A stretch of 24,455 nt of DNA, from the IMG/VR virus record IMGVR_UViG_3300009165_000037, positions 1 to 24,455 of that record; one strand, written 5' to 3'. The notes below the pieces were generated by a model. The model did no database searches, was not told the DNA's origin, and worked only from the letters and a program-made list of their open reading frames with translations. The first letter of the stretch is position 1, and every line of letters begins with the position of its first letter. Source of the stretch: a virus. Positions 3,636 to 21,363 of the stretch are shown here, one piece after another. The position numbers were made by a program, and so were the translations under genes.

Positions 3636-4598
3636 ATGGCATTAGCAAAAGTAGCATACCCCGGCGGTAGTACTTCTATCGTTAACAACACCAATGCAGC
3701 AGTATTCATTCCAGAAATTTGGAGTGACGAAGTCATCGCTGCTTACAAGAAAAACCTCGTATTGGCAAACCTTGTTCGCAAGATGTCTTTCAAAGGTAAG
3801 AAAGGTGATACCCTCCACATTCCTAAGCCAACTCGTGGCACAGCAACCGCTAAAGCAGCTAACACTGCCGTAACGATTCAAGCTGACACCGAGACAGAAG
3901 TTCAGGTTTTGGTAAACAAGCACTTCGAGTACTCACGTTTCATCGAGGACATCACCGAAGTTCAGGCTTTGGCATCGCTCCGTTCTTTCTACACGGAAGA
4001 CGCTGGTTACGCCTTGGCTAAACAAGTTGATGACGAACTCATCGCCTTGGGCAAGTCTTTTGGTAACAGCGACGGCGCTGACTGGGTACACAGCAATTCG
4101 TACTACATCGACGGTACTTCAGGTTTGACAGCTTACGCTGTTGACACTGTAGCTGCTGCTGACGTATTCACCGATGCTGGTTTCCGTAAGCTCATCCAGT
4201 TGATGGACGACGCTGACGTACCAATGGATGGTCGTAAGTTTGCGATTCCTCCTTCACTGCGTAACGCAATCATGGGTATTGACCGTTACAACAGCCGTGA
4301 CTTCGTTGATGCACGTGGCGTTCAAAACGGTCAAATCGGTAATCTGTATGGTATCGACATTTTCGTATCAAGCAATATGCCTACGATTGAAACTGCTGAT
4401 GATAATACCGCTGGCGACGCAGTTAAAGCCGCAATGCTTTTCCATACCGACACAATGGTATTGGCAGAGCAGTTAGGTGTTCGTTCACAGACTCAATACA
4501 AGCAAGATTACTTGGCTACTCTTTACACTGCCGACACATTGTTCGGTGTTAAAGTTGTACGTCCAGAAGCTGGTTTCGTATTGGCTGTAAACGCCTAA
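3636..4598 (+). CDS. Major capsid protein (HK97-fold)
   Basis: A 320-residue protein with ATG at 3636 and a strong AAAGGA at 3622-3627. It begins with a short arm (ALAKVAYPGG), then FIPEIWSDEVIAAYKKNLVLANLVR, which is typical of podovirus coat proteins just before the capsid core. Beta-rich segments follow (DTLHIPKP, FEYSRFIEDITEVQ), then an alpha-rich domain (AKQVDDELIALG) and the late motif FAIPPSLRNAIMGIDRY; it ends VVRPEAGFVLAVNA. Length and features match T7/P-SSP7-class HK97-fold coat proteins. The gene is closed by a strong terminator, fitting a highly expressed capsid operon. It has no proteolysed prohead domain, consistent with the separate scaffold upstream. Confidence 0.92.
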   Translation: MALAKVAYPGGSTSIVNNTNAAVFIPEIWSDEVIAAYKKNLVLANLVRKMSFKGKKGDTLHIPKPTRGTATAKAANTAVTIQADTETEVQVLVNKHFEYSRFIEDITEVQALASLRSFYTEDAGYALAKQVDDELIALGKSFGNSDGADWVHSNSYYIDGTSGLTAYAVDTVAAADVFTDAGFRKLIQLMDDADVPMDGRKFAIPPSLRNAIMGIDRYNSRDFVDARGVQNGQIGNLYGIDIFVSSNMPTIETADDNTAGDAVKAAMLFHTDTMVLAEQLGVRSQTQYKQDYLATLYTADTLFGVKVVRPEAGFVLAVNA

Positions 4599-4644: not shown

Positions 4645-4688
4645 AGTGTATTCCTAGAGTGCATTAAAACAAGTCAAGGAGATTAATT

Positions 4689-5885
4689 TTGAGCATATAC
4701 AGAGGCGCAGGTGGTGCAGGAGATGCTGTAGCAGACTCCTCTAGTGAAGCCTTACTAATTCGTGACTTAGCTGTAGAAGTTCAAGCCGATGCTGACGCTG
4801 CTTCTGCAAGTGCTACCGCTGCTTCTGGTTCAGCAAGTGCTGCATCATCTTCAGCAAGTGCTGCAAGTACTTCAGCAAGCAATGCTGCAACCTCAGCAAC
4901 CAACGCATCGAACTCAGCCACCGCTGCAGCTACCTCAGCTACCAATTCTGCTAACTCCGCTACTGCAGCTCAGACTGCAGAGACTAATGCAGAGACAGCA
5001 GAAACCAATGCTGAGACTGCACAGGCTGCTGCAGAGGCTGCACAGCTTGCTGCTGAGACAGCACAGACTGCTGCAGAACTAGCAGAGACTAACGCTGAAA
5101 CTGCAGAAACCAATGCTGAGACTGCAGAGACTAACGCTGTTGCTTCAGCAAGTGCTGCTTCTGGCTCTGCCTCTGCTGCAGCTACATCAGCTACTAATGC
5201 ATCCAATAGTGCAAGTGCAGCATCTACTTCAGCTACGAATGCTTCTAACTCTGCTAGTGCAGCATCTACATCTGCATCTAATGCAGCTACCTCAGAAACC
5301 AATGCTGCAACATCAGCTTCAACAGCAACCACTCAAGCAGGTATAGCAACAACACAAGCTGGTTTAGCATCTACATCAGCAAGCAATGCAGCTACATCCG
5401 AAACGAACGCTGCAGCTAGTGCATCTACTGCTACTACTCAGGCTGGTATCGCTACCACTCAAGCAGGTAATGCAGCCACTAGCGCAACCAATGCTAGTAA
5501 CTCAGCTAGTGCTGCAGCAACTTCTGCTACCAATGCTGCAAACTCTGCTACCTTAGCAGCAAGTTATACACCAAGTCAAACAGGTAACTCAGGTAAGTTC
5601 TTAACTACCAACGGTACAGCTACATCATGGGCTAATGTGGATGCCTTACCTTCTCAGACTGGTAACGCAGGAGAATACTTAACCACCGATGGAACTACTG
5701 CTTCTTGGTCTCCTTTAGATACTGATGCAAACAAAACCACTAAAGGTTTGTACGAACACAGCAACACCATCTCAACCAGCTACTCTATCACTGCAGGTAA
5801 CAACGCACACTCTGTAGGGGCTTTAACAATCGCTTCTGGTGTAACCGTTACTGTACCGTCAAACAGTCGCTGGGTTATCCTCTAA
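4689..5885 (+). CDS. Tail fibre with alanine-heptad shaft
   Basis: A 398-residue protein starting at TTG 4689, supported by AAGGAG at 4676-4681; the first residues MSIYRGAGGAGDAV are a recurrent N-terminus of short-tailed-phage fibres and probably attach to the virion. Residues 34-292 form 37 uninterrupted seven-residue repeats with Ala almost always at positions 2 and 5, as in SATNASN, SASAAST and AETNAET. After that come two copies of a 25-26 residue unit beginning PSQTGN(S/A)G and ending near SW (from about residues 295 and 321), then a beta-rich C-terminus (SYSITAGNNAHSVGALTIAS). The heptads suggest a slender trimeric coiled-coil shaft. The rare TTG start after a terminator may keep expression below that of the capsid gene. 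Likely role: receptor-binding fibre or fibre adaptor. Confidence 0.82.
   Translation: MSIYRGAGGAGDAVADSSSEALLIRDLAVEVQADADAASASATAASGSASAASSSASAASTSASNAATSATNASNSATAAATSATNSANSATAAQTAETNAETAETNAETAQAAAEAAQLAAETAQTAAELAETNAETAETNAETAETNAVASASAASGSASAAATSATNASNSASAASTSATNASNSASAASTSASNAATSETNAATSASTATTQAGIATTQAGLASTSASNAATSETNAAASASTATTQAGIATTQAGNAATSATNASNSASAAATSATNAANSATLAASYTPSQTGNSGKFLTTNGTATSWANVDALPSQTGNAGEYLTTDGTTASWSPLDTDANKTTKGLYEHSNTISTSYSITAGNNAHSVGALTIASGVTVTVPSNSRWVIL
4788..5564 (+). repeat. 37 x 21-nt in-frame degenerate heptad repeat
   Basis: Codons 34-292 of the tail fibre gene are built of consecutive 21-base units coding for 7-residue repeats. Neighbouring units differ by synonymous changes (GCA/GCT/GCC), but some blocks are near-identical. 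For example, the block coding for two AETNAET units occurs twice, and the ...SASTATTQAGIATTQAG block occurs twice. This pattern suggests growth by duplication of multi-heptad blocks followed by drift. Confidence 0.85.
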
Positions 5886-5893
5886 GGAACAAT

Positions 5894-6436
5894 ATGAGCG
5901 TAATATTACAATCTTCAAGTGGCGGCTCAGTCACCCTAAATGAGCCAACAACTGCTAGTAACTTTACAGTTACATTACCTGCTGCTACTGGTACTGTACA
6001 AGTTAGCGGTAATATGCCAGCGTTTAGTGTTTACCGTAGTTCAAATCAATCATTTACATCTAATACAATTAGTAAAATACAATTTAATGCAGAATTATTT
6101 GATACAGCTAATTGTTTTGATAGCACAACAAATTACCGTTTTACCCCTAATGTTGCTGGGTATTATCAAATCAACGCACAATCTAGGATAAGAGGAACTT
6201 CATCAGATAATAAAATTTTATATATTTATAAAAACGGCTCTAATTATGCCGCTATGGATAATTTTGCTTTATCTATTGAATATTTTGCAATCTCATTTTC
6301 TCAAGTTATATATTTTAACGGAACAACAGATTATGTAGAAGTGTATGGATTCTCTAATGGGTCAAATACTACATTTTTAGGTGATGCAACTATTTTATTT
6401 ACATCTTTTAGTGGTTCATTAGTGAGGGCTGCATAA
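5894..6436 (+). CDS. Fibre/tip protein with C1q-like beta-sandwich
   Basis: A 180-residue protein with ATG at 5894 and AAGGA at 5884-5888. It opens with a short N-terminal strand, MSVILQSSSGGSVTL, of the sort found on several fibre proteins in this region. It is followed by a domain resembling C1q/TNF-like trimeric jelly rolls: AFSVYRSSNQSFTSN, then IQFNAELFDTANCFD, FTPNVAGYYQINAQ, and a hydrophobic C-terminus (GDATILFTSFSGSLV). The spacing of F-N, aromatic G-Y-Y and terminal FSG elements is typical of that fold. Such domains end trimeric receptor-binding fibres. Codon use is visibly more AT-rich than the preceding genes, suggesting recent acquisition. The stop codon overlaps the next ATG by one base. 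Confidence 0.75.
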   Translation: MSVILQSSSGGSVTLNEPTTASNFTVTLPAATGTVQVSGNMPAFSVYRSSNQSFTSNTISKIQFNAELFDTANCFDSTTNYRFTPNVAGYYQINAQSRIRGTSSDNKILYIYKNGSNYAAMDNFALSIEYFAISFSQVIYFNGTTDYVEVYGFSNGSNTTFLGDATILFTSFSGSLVRAA

Positions 6437-6615
6437 TGAATTTATATGAAAAAATTATTGCGTTATACCCTTCTTTAGTTGATGCTGATTTTATTCCATC
6501 AATAGGCACAATCACACTACAAAACGATAGTGATAATAAGGGTGACTATATTCGTGCTTGGAATCACCCTAGTTTGCCTATGCCTACTCAGGAGCAATTA
6601 GATGCCGTTAAGTAA
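6436..6615 (+). CDS. Small tail-fibre-assembly-like protein (59 aa)
   Basis: A 59-residue ORF starting at ATG 6436, overlapping the stop of the C1q-like fibre gene (TAATG), and ending at TAA 6613-6615. The C-terminal part DYIRAWNHPSLPMPTQEQLDAVK is a pattern seen repeatedly in small phage proteins encoded beside tail fibre genes, where a W-N-H-P..P.PT..QL segment marks tail-fibre-assembly or XkdW-like proteins. It also shares the short fibre-accessory format with the 64-residue protein at 8194. It probably helps folding or attachment of the adjacent fibre. The next gene begins inside its last four codons, indicating translational coupling. Function is inferred from motif and position only. 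Confidence 0.7.
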   Translation: MNLYEKIIALYPSLVDADFIPSIGTITLQNDSDNKGDYIRAWNHPSLPMPTQEQLDAVK

Positions 6616-7105
6616 AGAAATGCTTAATGAGTTGTTTGAGTACCGTGATGGAGAAATCTATTACAAGGTAAGCCGTAGCCGTAATAAAGCTGGCTCTAAA
6701 GCTGGCACTTATAGAAAGCACGACAACGCTTACCAAGTCATTATTAACGGAAAGCATTACCTTACCCATCGTATTGTATTTATGATGCACAACGGTTTTT
6801 TACCGCAGTTTGTAGACCATATTGACCGCAATCGTTCTAACAATAAAATTGAAAATTTGCGTGAAGCTACATTAGAACAAAATGCCCAAAATTCTAAAAT
6901 ACGCAAAGATGCTACAAGCGGTGTTAAAGGCGTTACTTGGAGCAAAGAAAACAAAGTATGGCGTGTGCGTGTGCAAGCTAATGGTCAACGCAAAGACTTT
7001 GGTGGATTTAAAGATTTGGAACTTGCTCAGTTAGTAGCTATGGAAGCAAGGAATAAATATCATGGCGCATACGCTAATCATGGAGTTACAAAATGTCAGT
7101 TCTAA
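6602..7105 (+). CDS. HNH homing endonuclease with AP2 DNA-binding domain
   Basis: A 167-residue protein with ATG at 6602 and AGGAG at 6590-6594. Residues about 50-95 carry an HNH core: H73 and D75 in VDHIDRNRSNNKIENLR, with conserved Asn at 80-81 and 85. Residues about 105-155 form an AP2-type domain (SGVKGVTWSKENKVWRVRV, then FGGFKDLELAQLVAMEARNKYHG). This HNH-AP2 architecture is typical of free-standing phage homing endonucleases that cut DNA lacking the gene and so spread. It overlaps the upstream ORF by 14 bases and the downstream fibre gene by 13, without disrupting either. It carries the Shine-Dalgarno site of the next gene (GGAG at 7082-7085). It is not required for the virion. Confidence 0.9.
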   Translation: MPLSKEMLNELFEYRDGEIYYKVSRSRNKAGSKAGTYRKHDNAYQVIINGKHYLTHRIVFMMHNGFLPQFVDHIDRNRSNNKIENLREATLEQNAQNSKIRKDATSGVKGVTWSKENKVWRVRVQANGQRKDFGGFKDLELAQLVAMEARNKYHGAYANHGVTKCQF

Positions 7106-19309: not shown

Positions 19310-19465
19310 TTACTTACGGTTTTCTTCTTCTTGCTTAATTGCAGCGAGTAAGACTGCTTTAAACCCTTCATTGATTAAAAACTTAGTGGACTCTTCATCT
19401 AGTCGAACCTCAACATCAGCTGAACCATCATCGTTTTCTACGTAGTTTAAAATTGAAATGTTCAT
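19310..19465 (-). CDS. Small acidic phage protein (51 aa), last gene of the operon
   Basis: A 51-residue protein starting at ATG 19465, which overlaps the reductase stop as ATGA, and ending just before the operon terminator. An in-frame non-ATG start further upstream would add nine residues inside the reductase gene and is less likely. The sequence NISILNYVENDDGSADVEVR, then a helix (STKFLINEGFKAVLLAAIKQ), resembles a small beta-alpha phage protein of the pattern I.VLNYEENEDGSADV...LD.E....LI..GF. The function is unknown. Tight coupling to the ribonucleotide reductase could mean a regulatory or accessory role, but position alone is weak evidence. Confidence 0.78.
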   Translation of the reverse strand: MNISILNYVENDDGSADVEVRLDEESTKFLINEGFKAVLLAAIKQEEENRK

Positions 19466-21363
19466 TTTACTGGACACGCTCCTGTAGCACACTCATCGCC
19501 GCCGTCAAAAGATGCTTCATCTACTTTAGTAATTAATGTTGTTTTAGAGACTAAAGCATCATATTCTTCTTTGGTTATCTCTTCATAAGGCGCTTGTTTA
19601 AACCCATGGTCGCTGTGTAATAAAAAAGACAGTGATTTATGATTGTTCTTGTAGTTCTTAGCAAGATACTTCTTAATCTCCGGTAATTCTTCTTTACGGT
19701 AATACACCGTACAAGACACCGAATTATCGCTCCACACTTCCTGAAGCCACTTAACTGTCTCTAATTGCGAAATAGCTGTCATTTGGTTTGCTAACACAGT
19801 TCCTTCTGGATAAGCAAAAGGAAATGATACGACAACAGTGCTGTGGTCTTCAGAGCCGTCAAAGTTCTGTTGATACTCTACAGGATAACCGTGCTCACGA
19901 CATACATTAACTAAAGCGTGGTCAGCAGAGATGCGAATACGACGAATCATATATTGAGCATACGCTGGGTGACAGCCCGGAGTTACGCCCGGAAGCAGTG
20001 ATAAAGTACCGCTAGGTTTAACGGTTGTGAGTTTAATTGACTCAGGGAAGCCGTGCTCTGCACTGTACGCTTTGTCAAAAGCACGCAGTTCTTCGTAAGT
20101 CGGACTTAACCAAGACTTTTGCTCTTCCGTTGCTTGCAGCACACCTGTAACACCAATACCCATCCGCATATTCTTATGCACAATATCTGCTGTCTCATCT
20201 AAATGACAAGGCAAAGACAAACTGTGTTTGTTGATGCGGTACAGTAGTTGACAAATATCAATTAGTTCTTCTTTTGATGTTACATTGGGAAGGTAAACCT
20301 CTGCAAGACAGCAGGTTTCGTAAGCAGCCAAAGACTGCTCTGCACAAGGGTTATATCCTTCTACATCAGGGTCAGGATAGTTAGTGTCTCCTAAACGACC
20401 CATCTTACGGCTTAAACGTAAGTTGATAAAGCCATAAGGCTCACCTTTGCCTTCGTAACCGTCCCAGAAATACTCATGCAGGTCTTTGATGTCGTTACAC
20501 ACAACAGAGTTGTTTGACATTGCTCTCCAGCTAGGGATGTTGCCCATGTCCCAGCGCTTGGCTAAAAGATACTCAACATCATCAGGGTCTCCAATAGCAA
20601 TCTGAGCAGACCTGCGGACATTCCCAGCCACAACAACAGCGCCGATAATGTTCATAACATCTAAGGCATCAATAGGACGTAGTTTCTTACCTGCTCTTTT
20701 TTCTAAAACTTCAGAAATTTTCTCAATTCCCCAGCATAAATCTTCAGGTCCACTAGCAGTGCCTCCGAATCCTTTAATGGTAGAACCTTTACCTCGTACC
20801 AATACAGTCGAATAAGTAAAGGTAGGCTTTTTATCAGACAAAAATGCAGCTTTAAGAGTCTTACCAAGCAACTGAACCCAACCCTCACGACTATCAGGAA
20901 CGATAAAATCAGCATCATTGCTATCAACACGAACAGGACGGGAAAACTGACTATTAACTTCAGGTAGTTTATCAATGTTTTTCCTTTGAATATTATAGCC
21001 AACACCTGAACCAAGCATAAGCATATCCATTGCCCATGTAAACGGACGTACTGGTTCGTTAATTACAGTGAACGCACAGTTCTGTAGACTGGCAAGACCT
21101 AGACGCTCTACTGTTTCTGTTCCCATTTGCCATAAGAAACGACCAGCGACGGTTCCTTTTAGTTCCATTAAATACTTACGAAGACGGACTTTTTCGTCAT
21201 CGGTAAAGCCGACATGGAGTTGATTATTTGTAGAAGCTATTACACGATTCACGGTGTCTTCAAATTCTTCTGTTGGGCTGTTTGGGTTTGTTTCGTCCAA
21301 ACGACGAGCGTAGGTTCTTTTATAAGTGATGTAGCCTACGGTACTAAATGGTGTGTTAAACAT
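19462..21363 (-). CDS. nrdJ: Class II (adenosylcobalamin-dependent) ribonucleotide reductase
   Basis: A 633-residue protein, ATG 21363, with AAAAGGA just upstream. It reduces ribonucleoside triphosphates (or diphosphates) to deoxyribonucleotides using coenzyme B12. Visible motifs: LQNCAF with Cys96 (first active-site thiol), NPCAE with Asn338, Cys340 (thiyl radical site) and Glu342, Cys351 in ETCCLAE (11 residues after the radical Cys, the spacing of the Lactobacillus enzyme), KPSGTLSLLPGVTPGCHPAY, and the C-terminal redox pair CATGAC (Cys625, Cys630). Glycine-rich GSGVGYN (about 118-124) fits the substrate site. The protein is about 100 residues shorter than the Lactobacillus monomeric enzyme (739 residues). 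The gene supplies dNTPs for phage replication. Confidence 0.92.
   Translation of the reverse strand: MFNTPFSTVGYITYKRTYARRLDETNPNSPTEEFEDTVNRVIASTNNQLHVGFTDDEKVRLRKYLMELKGTVAGRFLWQMGTETVERLGLASLQNCAFTVINEPVRPFTWAMDMLMLGSGVGYNIQRKNIDKLPEVNSQFSRPVRVDSNDADFIVPDSREGWVQLLGKTLKAAFLSDKKPTFTYSTVLVRGKGSTIKGFGGTASGPEDLCWGIEKISEVLEKRAGKKLRPIDALDVMNIIGAVVVAGNVRRSAQIAIGDPDDVEYLLAKRWDMGNIPSWRAMSNNSVVCNDIKDLHEYFWDGYEGKGEPYGFINLRLSRKMGRLGDTNYPDPDVEGYNPCAEQSLAAYETCCLAEVYLPNVTSKEELIDICQLLYRINKHSLSLPCHLDETADIVHKNMRMGIGVTGVLQATEEQKSWLSPTYEELRAFDKAYSAEHGFPESIKLTTVKPSGTLSLLPGVTPGCHPAYAQYMIRRIRISADHALVNVCREHGYPVEYQQNFDGSEDHSTVVVSFPFAYPEGTVLANQMTAISQLETVKWLQEVWSDNSVSCTVYYRKEELPEIKKYLAKNYKNNHKSLSFLLHSDHGFKQAPYEEITKEEYDALVSKTTLITKVDEASFDGGDECATGACPVK

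Follow-up and report, generated by a model that had tools for sequence, protein, structure and literature searches.

Shafts of alanine heptads are already known in phage tail fibres. In lambda Orf-401 (Stf), 32 heptads can be counted, the two core positions being Ala in 31/32 and 22/32 of them, and there are units of the ETNA type, as in the protein analysed here. The same Ala lattice, ETNA units included, runs through LtfA of DT57C, a T5-type L-shaped tail fibre (PDB 8hqz), for which the cryo-EM report describes a long helix from T40 as the trimerisation domain, in the form of a three-helix coiled coil (PMC10713586). A further model is the Lpp Ala-14 alanine zipper (PDB 1JCD), a trimeric coiled coil with Ala at a and d, which is engineered and short, unlike the protein considered here. 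In this regard, the all-Ala mutant was a trimer in crystals and mostly unfolded in solution, and therefore a pure Ala core is weak; engineered Lpp trimers with Ala cores showed a narrower supercoil radius (5.1 versus 6.1 Å) as well as low stability (PMC4137666). A literature search on fibre coiled coils rich in alanine gave no publication, and neither did a search for PDB 9cod.

The locus described here lies in a viral record 24,455 bases long (the window). The fibre gene (4689-5885, + strand), recognised from its open reading frame and a profile match, encodes 398 aa from a TTG start, with a ribosome-binding site AAGGAG (4676-4681, +) located 7 bases 5′ of it. The best PHROG match in the profile search was to the tail fiber protein family PHROG 3279 (E=1.4e-19, residues 114-375), which lambda Orf-401 also matches; as the match covers mostly the repetitive shaft, the case for common descent is weaker than the E-value implies. 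A Pfam search of the protein matched no fibre family, and megablast of the whole window against phage records gave no match. The gene comes after that of the major capsid protein on the same strand (3636-4598, +; PHROG 267, E=1.7e-51, Pfam PF19821), which was used for finding relatives. An antisense ORF (4970-5332, −) was discarded as a mirror of the repeats. The next gene (5894-6436, +; 180 aa) shows an N-terminal SSGGSVTL..TLPAATGTV segment together with weak matches to PHROG tail and unknown families, and its product might serve as another fibre tip protein. Amid the fibre genes there is an HNH endonuclease with an AP2-like part (6602-7105, +; PHROG 99, E=6.9e-62), probably of the homing type, and a ribonucleotide reductase (19462-21363, −; PHROG 367) is encoded on the strand opposite to the fibre gene.

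The alanine lattice and its age

The shaft (4788-5564, +; residues 34-292), delimited by heptad count, Ala-segment score and predicted helix, was recounted as exactly 37 heptads with zero register breaks, just as an earlier note on this DNA had read it. The same note had placed Ala at position 5 in all units but one, which our count reproduces (36/37), and at position 2 in all but two units, which it contradicts: Ala is found there in 27/37 units, Glu in seven and Gln in three, so that ten units deviate. These two positions of the unbroken heptads lie 3-4 residues apart and match the a and d sites in coiled coils, as in an alanine-core design. Autocorrelation of the shaft gave a lag-7 identity of 0.595 versus 0.234 in shuffles (z = 16.5), and the segment score for Ala at i,i+3 was 52 for the window protein, compared with a maximum of 18 among 300 shuffles of the same residues. 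Ala, Ser and Thr make up 199 of the 259 shaft residues. Upstream of this limit, the 3-4 lattice runs on through Val14, Ser17, Ala21, Ile24, Ala28 and Val31 (4728-4787, +), an extension that contains the larger apolar residues V14, I24 and V31. Because of this lattice up to Val14 and an AlphaFold2 helix from residue 13, we place the start of the rod earlier, and the coiled coil probably begins some 20 residues before residue 34, with about 40 heptads in all.

Duplicated multi-heptad blocks had been taken in the earlier note as a hint that length can change by recombination. Such blocks exist at the protein level, where the best one (units 24-28 against 29-33) keeps 32/35 residues identical, and fade in the DNA, with just 70% identity and the same codon at 12 of the 32 identical residues (13.7 expected from codon usage). 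Over all pairs of units, the same-codon fraction was 0.446 versus an expected 0.411, and the longest exact DNA repeat was 24 bases. Since codons were randomised between copies while the amino-acid lattice was kept, the duplications are old, and selection at the protein level has preserved the lattice. Recent recombination inside the window fibre gene is not indicated; with its synonymous sites randomised, the idea of length change by recombination is not supported within the gene and survives for the whole-heptad changes between related phages.

Heptad steps among relatives

Relatives were taken from 80 loci with a related capsid gene and from additional loci found by fibre search, the same N-terminal motif being common to the fibres, and their heptads were counted with a seven-state model trained on shafts. 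In this way, the shafts of about 50 relatives were found to range from 2 to 57 heptads with no internal register slip, and phase shifts occurred only across inserted non-heptad modules. An anchor test was done on the 49 sequences having an N-anchor together with one of the C-anchors YTPSQTGN and YDxFDDRYLG. Within every pairing of N-type and C-anchor, the distance between anchors fell into one class modulo 7, in 49/49 sequences, many of which are related, so that they represent fewer than 49 independent events, whereas the control lengths from anchor to C-terminus of 40 complete proteins occupied all seven classes (3,7,5,4,6,6,9). These distances take 20 different values between 40 and 370 residues. 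Relatives with non-multiples of seven in this segment, which the earlier note had named as evidence against its rod, did not appear among the 49 distances, and the proposal stands on this point. On the other hand, unequal recombination between repeat units would equally give whole-heptad steps without structural selection.

Other modules were also seen in these fibres. A 10-residue DVTTVAGISS-like repeat occupies fibre residues of about 105-290 in L063, L038 and L037, with autocorrelation peaks at 10, 20 and 30, and was recognised by inspection in L048 and L015; it sits between or replaces Ala heptads, and the heptad phase is changed after it. In L064, L068, L055 and L078, the Ala shaft contains, or is replaced by, a Val/Leu variant of the heptad, TAADVVTTNADAA-like, and in the first two of them the flanking Ala heptads keep one phase.

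In the 17 sequences of the window's N-type with the YTPSQTG anchor, 36-38 units precede the tip, counted from residue 27. Unit-level alignments, uncertain owing to the repeats, suggest that units were gained and lost internally more than once, and they gave large compensating gaps in close pairs with zero net length change; the fibres of the window and L003 are 0.55 identical without gaps and 0.75 with them, and shuffled unit orders produce gaps too (mean of 3.85 events, identity 0.63). That the rod of this group works as a ruler under stabilising length selection, gains being offset by losses, is a tentative reading that we hold as rather doubtful.

Predicted fold and assembly

AlphaFold2, run on a single chain with an alignment of 13 fibres as input, predicted helix at residues 13-166 and 175-291 and beta structure beyond, with moderate confidence (pTM 0.27). 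It is this prediction that gives the helix in the shaft, with a pLDDT near 78 over the first half and of roughly 40-70 over the second, falling to about 41 at residues 160-179, where the helix has a gap (167-174). A Foldseek search of the full model against the PDB gave no match (best E=4.2), as expected for one long helix, and the isolated tip was predicted too poorly for a fold search (mean pLDDT 53). With the textbook helix rise of 0.1485 nm per residue, the 259 shaft residues span 38.5 nm, and the 279 counted from residue 13 span 41.4 nm, so that the roughly 38-40 nm initially proposed for the rod was sound, if slightly low. The helical rod with Ala at a and d is well supported by the lattice, the predicted helix, the multiples of seven and the cryo-EM coiled coil of DT57C LtfA.

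At one end of the protein, the N-terminal motif MSIYRGAGGAGDA (4689-4727, +; residues 1-13), defined by alignment of 13 fibres, keeps R5, G6, G8, G9 and G11 unchanged throughout and is presumed to serve in virion attachment. At the other, the C-terminal tip (5565-5882, +; 106 aa), delimited by the fibre alignment and by AlphaFold2 strands, contains the SQTGN.GKxLTT.GT..SW repeat twice together with a terminal SVG.(L/I)TI..GVTVTVPSxSRWVIL motif, and it is beta-rich in the prediction, with strands of low confidence. One relative of the window fibre, which shares this N-terminal motif as well as the shaft, has a fibre chaperone domain, Peptidase_S74, close to its C-terminus.

Altogether, we consider it highly probable that the protein is a tail fibre whose three copies form a parallel alanine-core coiled coil of about 40 nm, ending in a beta tip and evolving in length by heptad steps. 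On this reading, 4689-5885 encodes the tail fibre protein of a tailed phage, and its chains would probably join by threes into a parallel three-helix coiled coil with a core of nearly pure alanine, making an unusually thin and rigid rod. The Y/F-R-G-x-G-G N-terminus would anchor the fibre to the virion, the larger apolar residues V14, I24 and V31 at the helix start would aid nucleation, and the beta-structured tip of about 106 residues would sit at the distal end, presumably for host recognition, at a distance from the virion set by the rod. Over evolution, the length of the rod changes in whole heptads only, probably because any other step would disrupt the core. Since engineered Ala-core trimers are of low stability, the apolar helix start and the beta tip probably add stability to the trimer.

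The oligomeric state of the window fibre would follow by analogy, and other helical assemblies can accommodate close-packed Ala pairs, so that the shaft might be a dimer, an antiparallel Alacoil-like structure or a helix wrapped around another virion protein. We regard such assemblies as improbable: the S74 chaperone domain present in a relative is known from trimeric fibres, and DT57C LtfA, with its Ala lattice, is a three-helix coiled coil by cryo-EM (PMC10713586). No more probable, and if anything less so, is a flexible low-complexity linker with no coiled coil, where the heptad would be the footprint of an old 21-base tandem duplication. The Ala/Ser/Thr-rich composition, the pLDDT minimum at residues 160-179 and the weakness of a pure Ala core in solution (PMC4137666) agree with it, but the lattice was retained while codons were randomised between blocks (12/32 the same), about 50 relatives show zero register slips, and the same lattice occurs in DT57C LtfA, whose coiled coil was solved (PMC10713586). 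A beta-helical or otherwise beta-structured shaft, for which the beta-rich tip could speak, is practically out of the question with a helix predicted across nearly the whole shaft and with an Ala-rich 3-4 lattice, the signature of a helix.

Comparison with described fibres

The very thin alanine coiled coil had been thought in the earlier note to set this shaft apart from ordinary fibres, which is not supported, as lambda Orf-401 and DT57C LtfA share the alanine-heptad design; the note's view of the structure is otherwise correct for the most part. It is an ordinary tail-fibre coiled-coil shaft, of the lambda Stf or T5-type lateral fibre kind, with other end domains. Lambda Orf-401 has a PF08400 (phage_tail_N) N-terminal domain and PF03406 at its end, whereas the window protein has neither: PF08400, the marker of Lambda-type side tail fibres, gave no match in it despite the alanine-heptad shaft, nor did the phage tail fibre repeats PF03335/PF03406, matched in lambda Orf-314 and Orf-401. 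DT57C LtfA gave a weak, ungapped phmmer match to the window protein over 167 residues (E=0.026). In the LtfA fragment, one core position is Ala or Ser in 24/24 units and the other mostly Ala, Glu, Lys or Arg; its core has Ser, Glu and Lys more often than the window shaft, and the fibre is longer. The resemblance shown is one of the lattice and not of the ends. The N-terminus of LtfA is held by an LtfC ring (PMC10713586).

Two further fibres show the same kind of segment. The gp22 of MEP301, a marine Methylophilales phage, annotated as tail fiber protein, combines 24 Ala heptads with the terminal tip motif of the window protein, and differs in its N-terminal region and in the place of its gene, downstream of one for an internal virion protein. 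The T7 gp17 tail fibre, weakly matched by the window protein (E=0.57), shows between residues 215 and 263 about seven Ala heptads, a short segment whose score of 10 barely exceeds the shuffle maximum of 8; its N-terminal domain, PF03906, was absent from the window protein in the Pfam search. The rod length is quantised in heptads across a wide range, from 2 to 57, a natural set of lengths that would allow testing fibre length against adsorption. In this line, environmental phages commonly carry the thin alanine coiled-coil rod known from lambda and T5-type fibres, as a module combined with varied ends.
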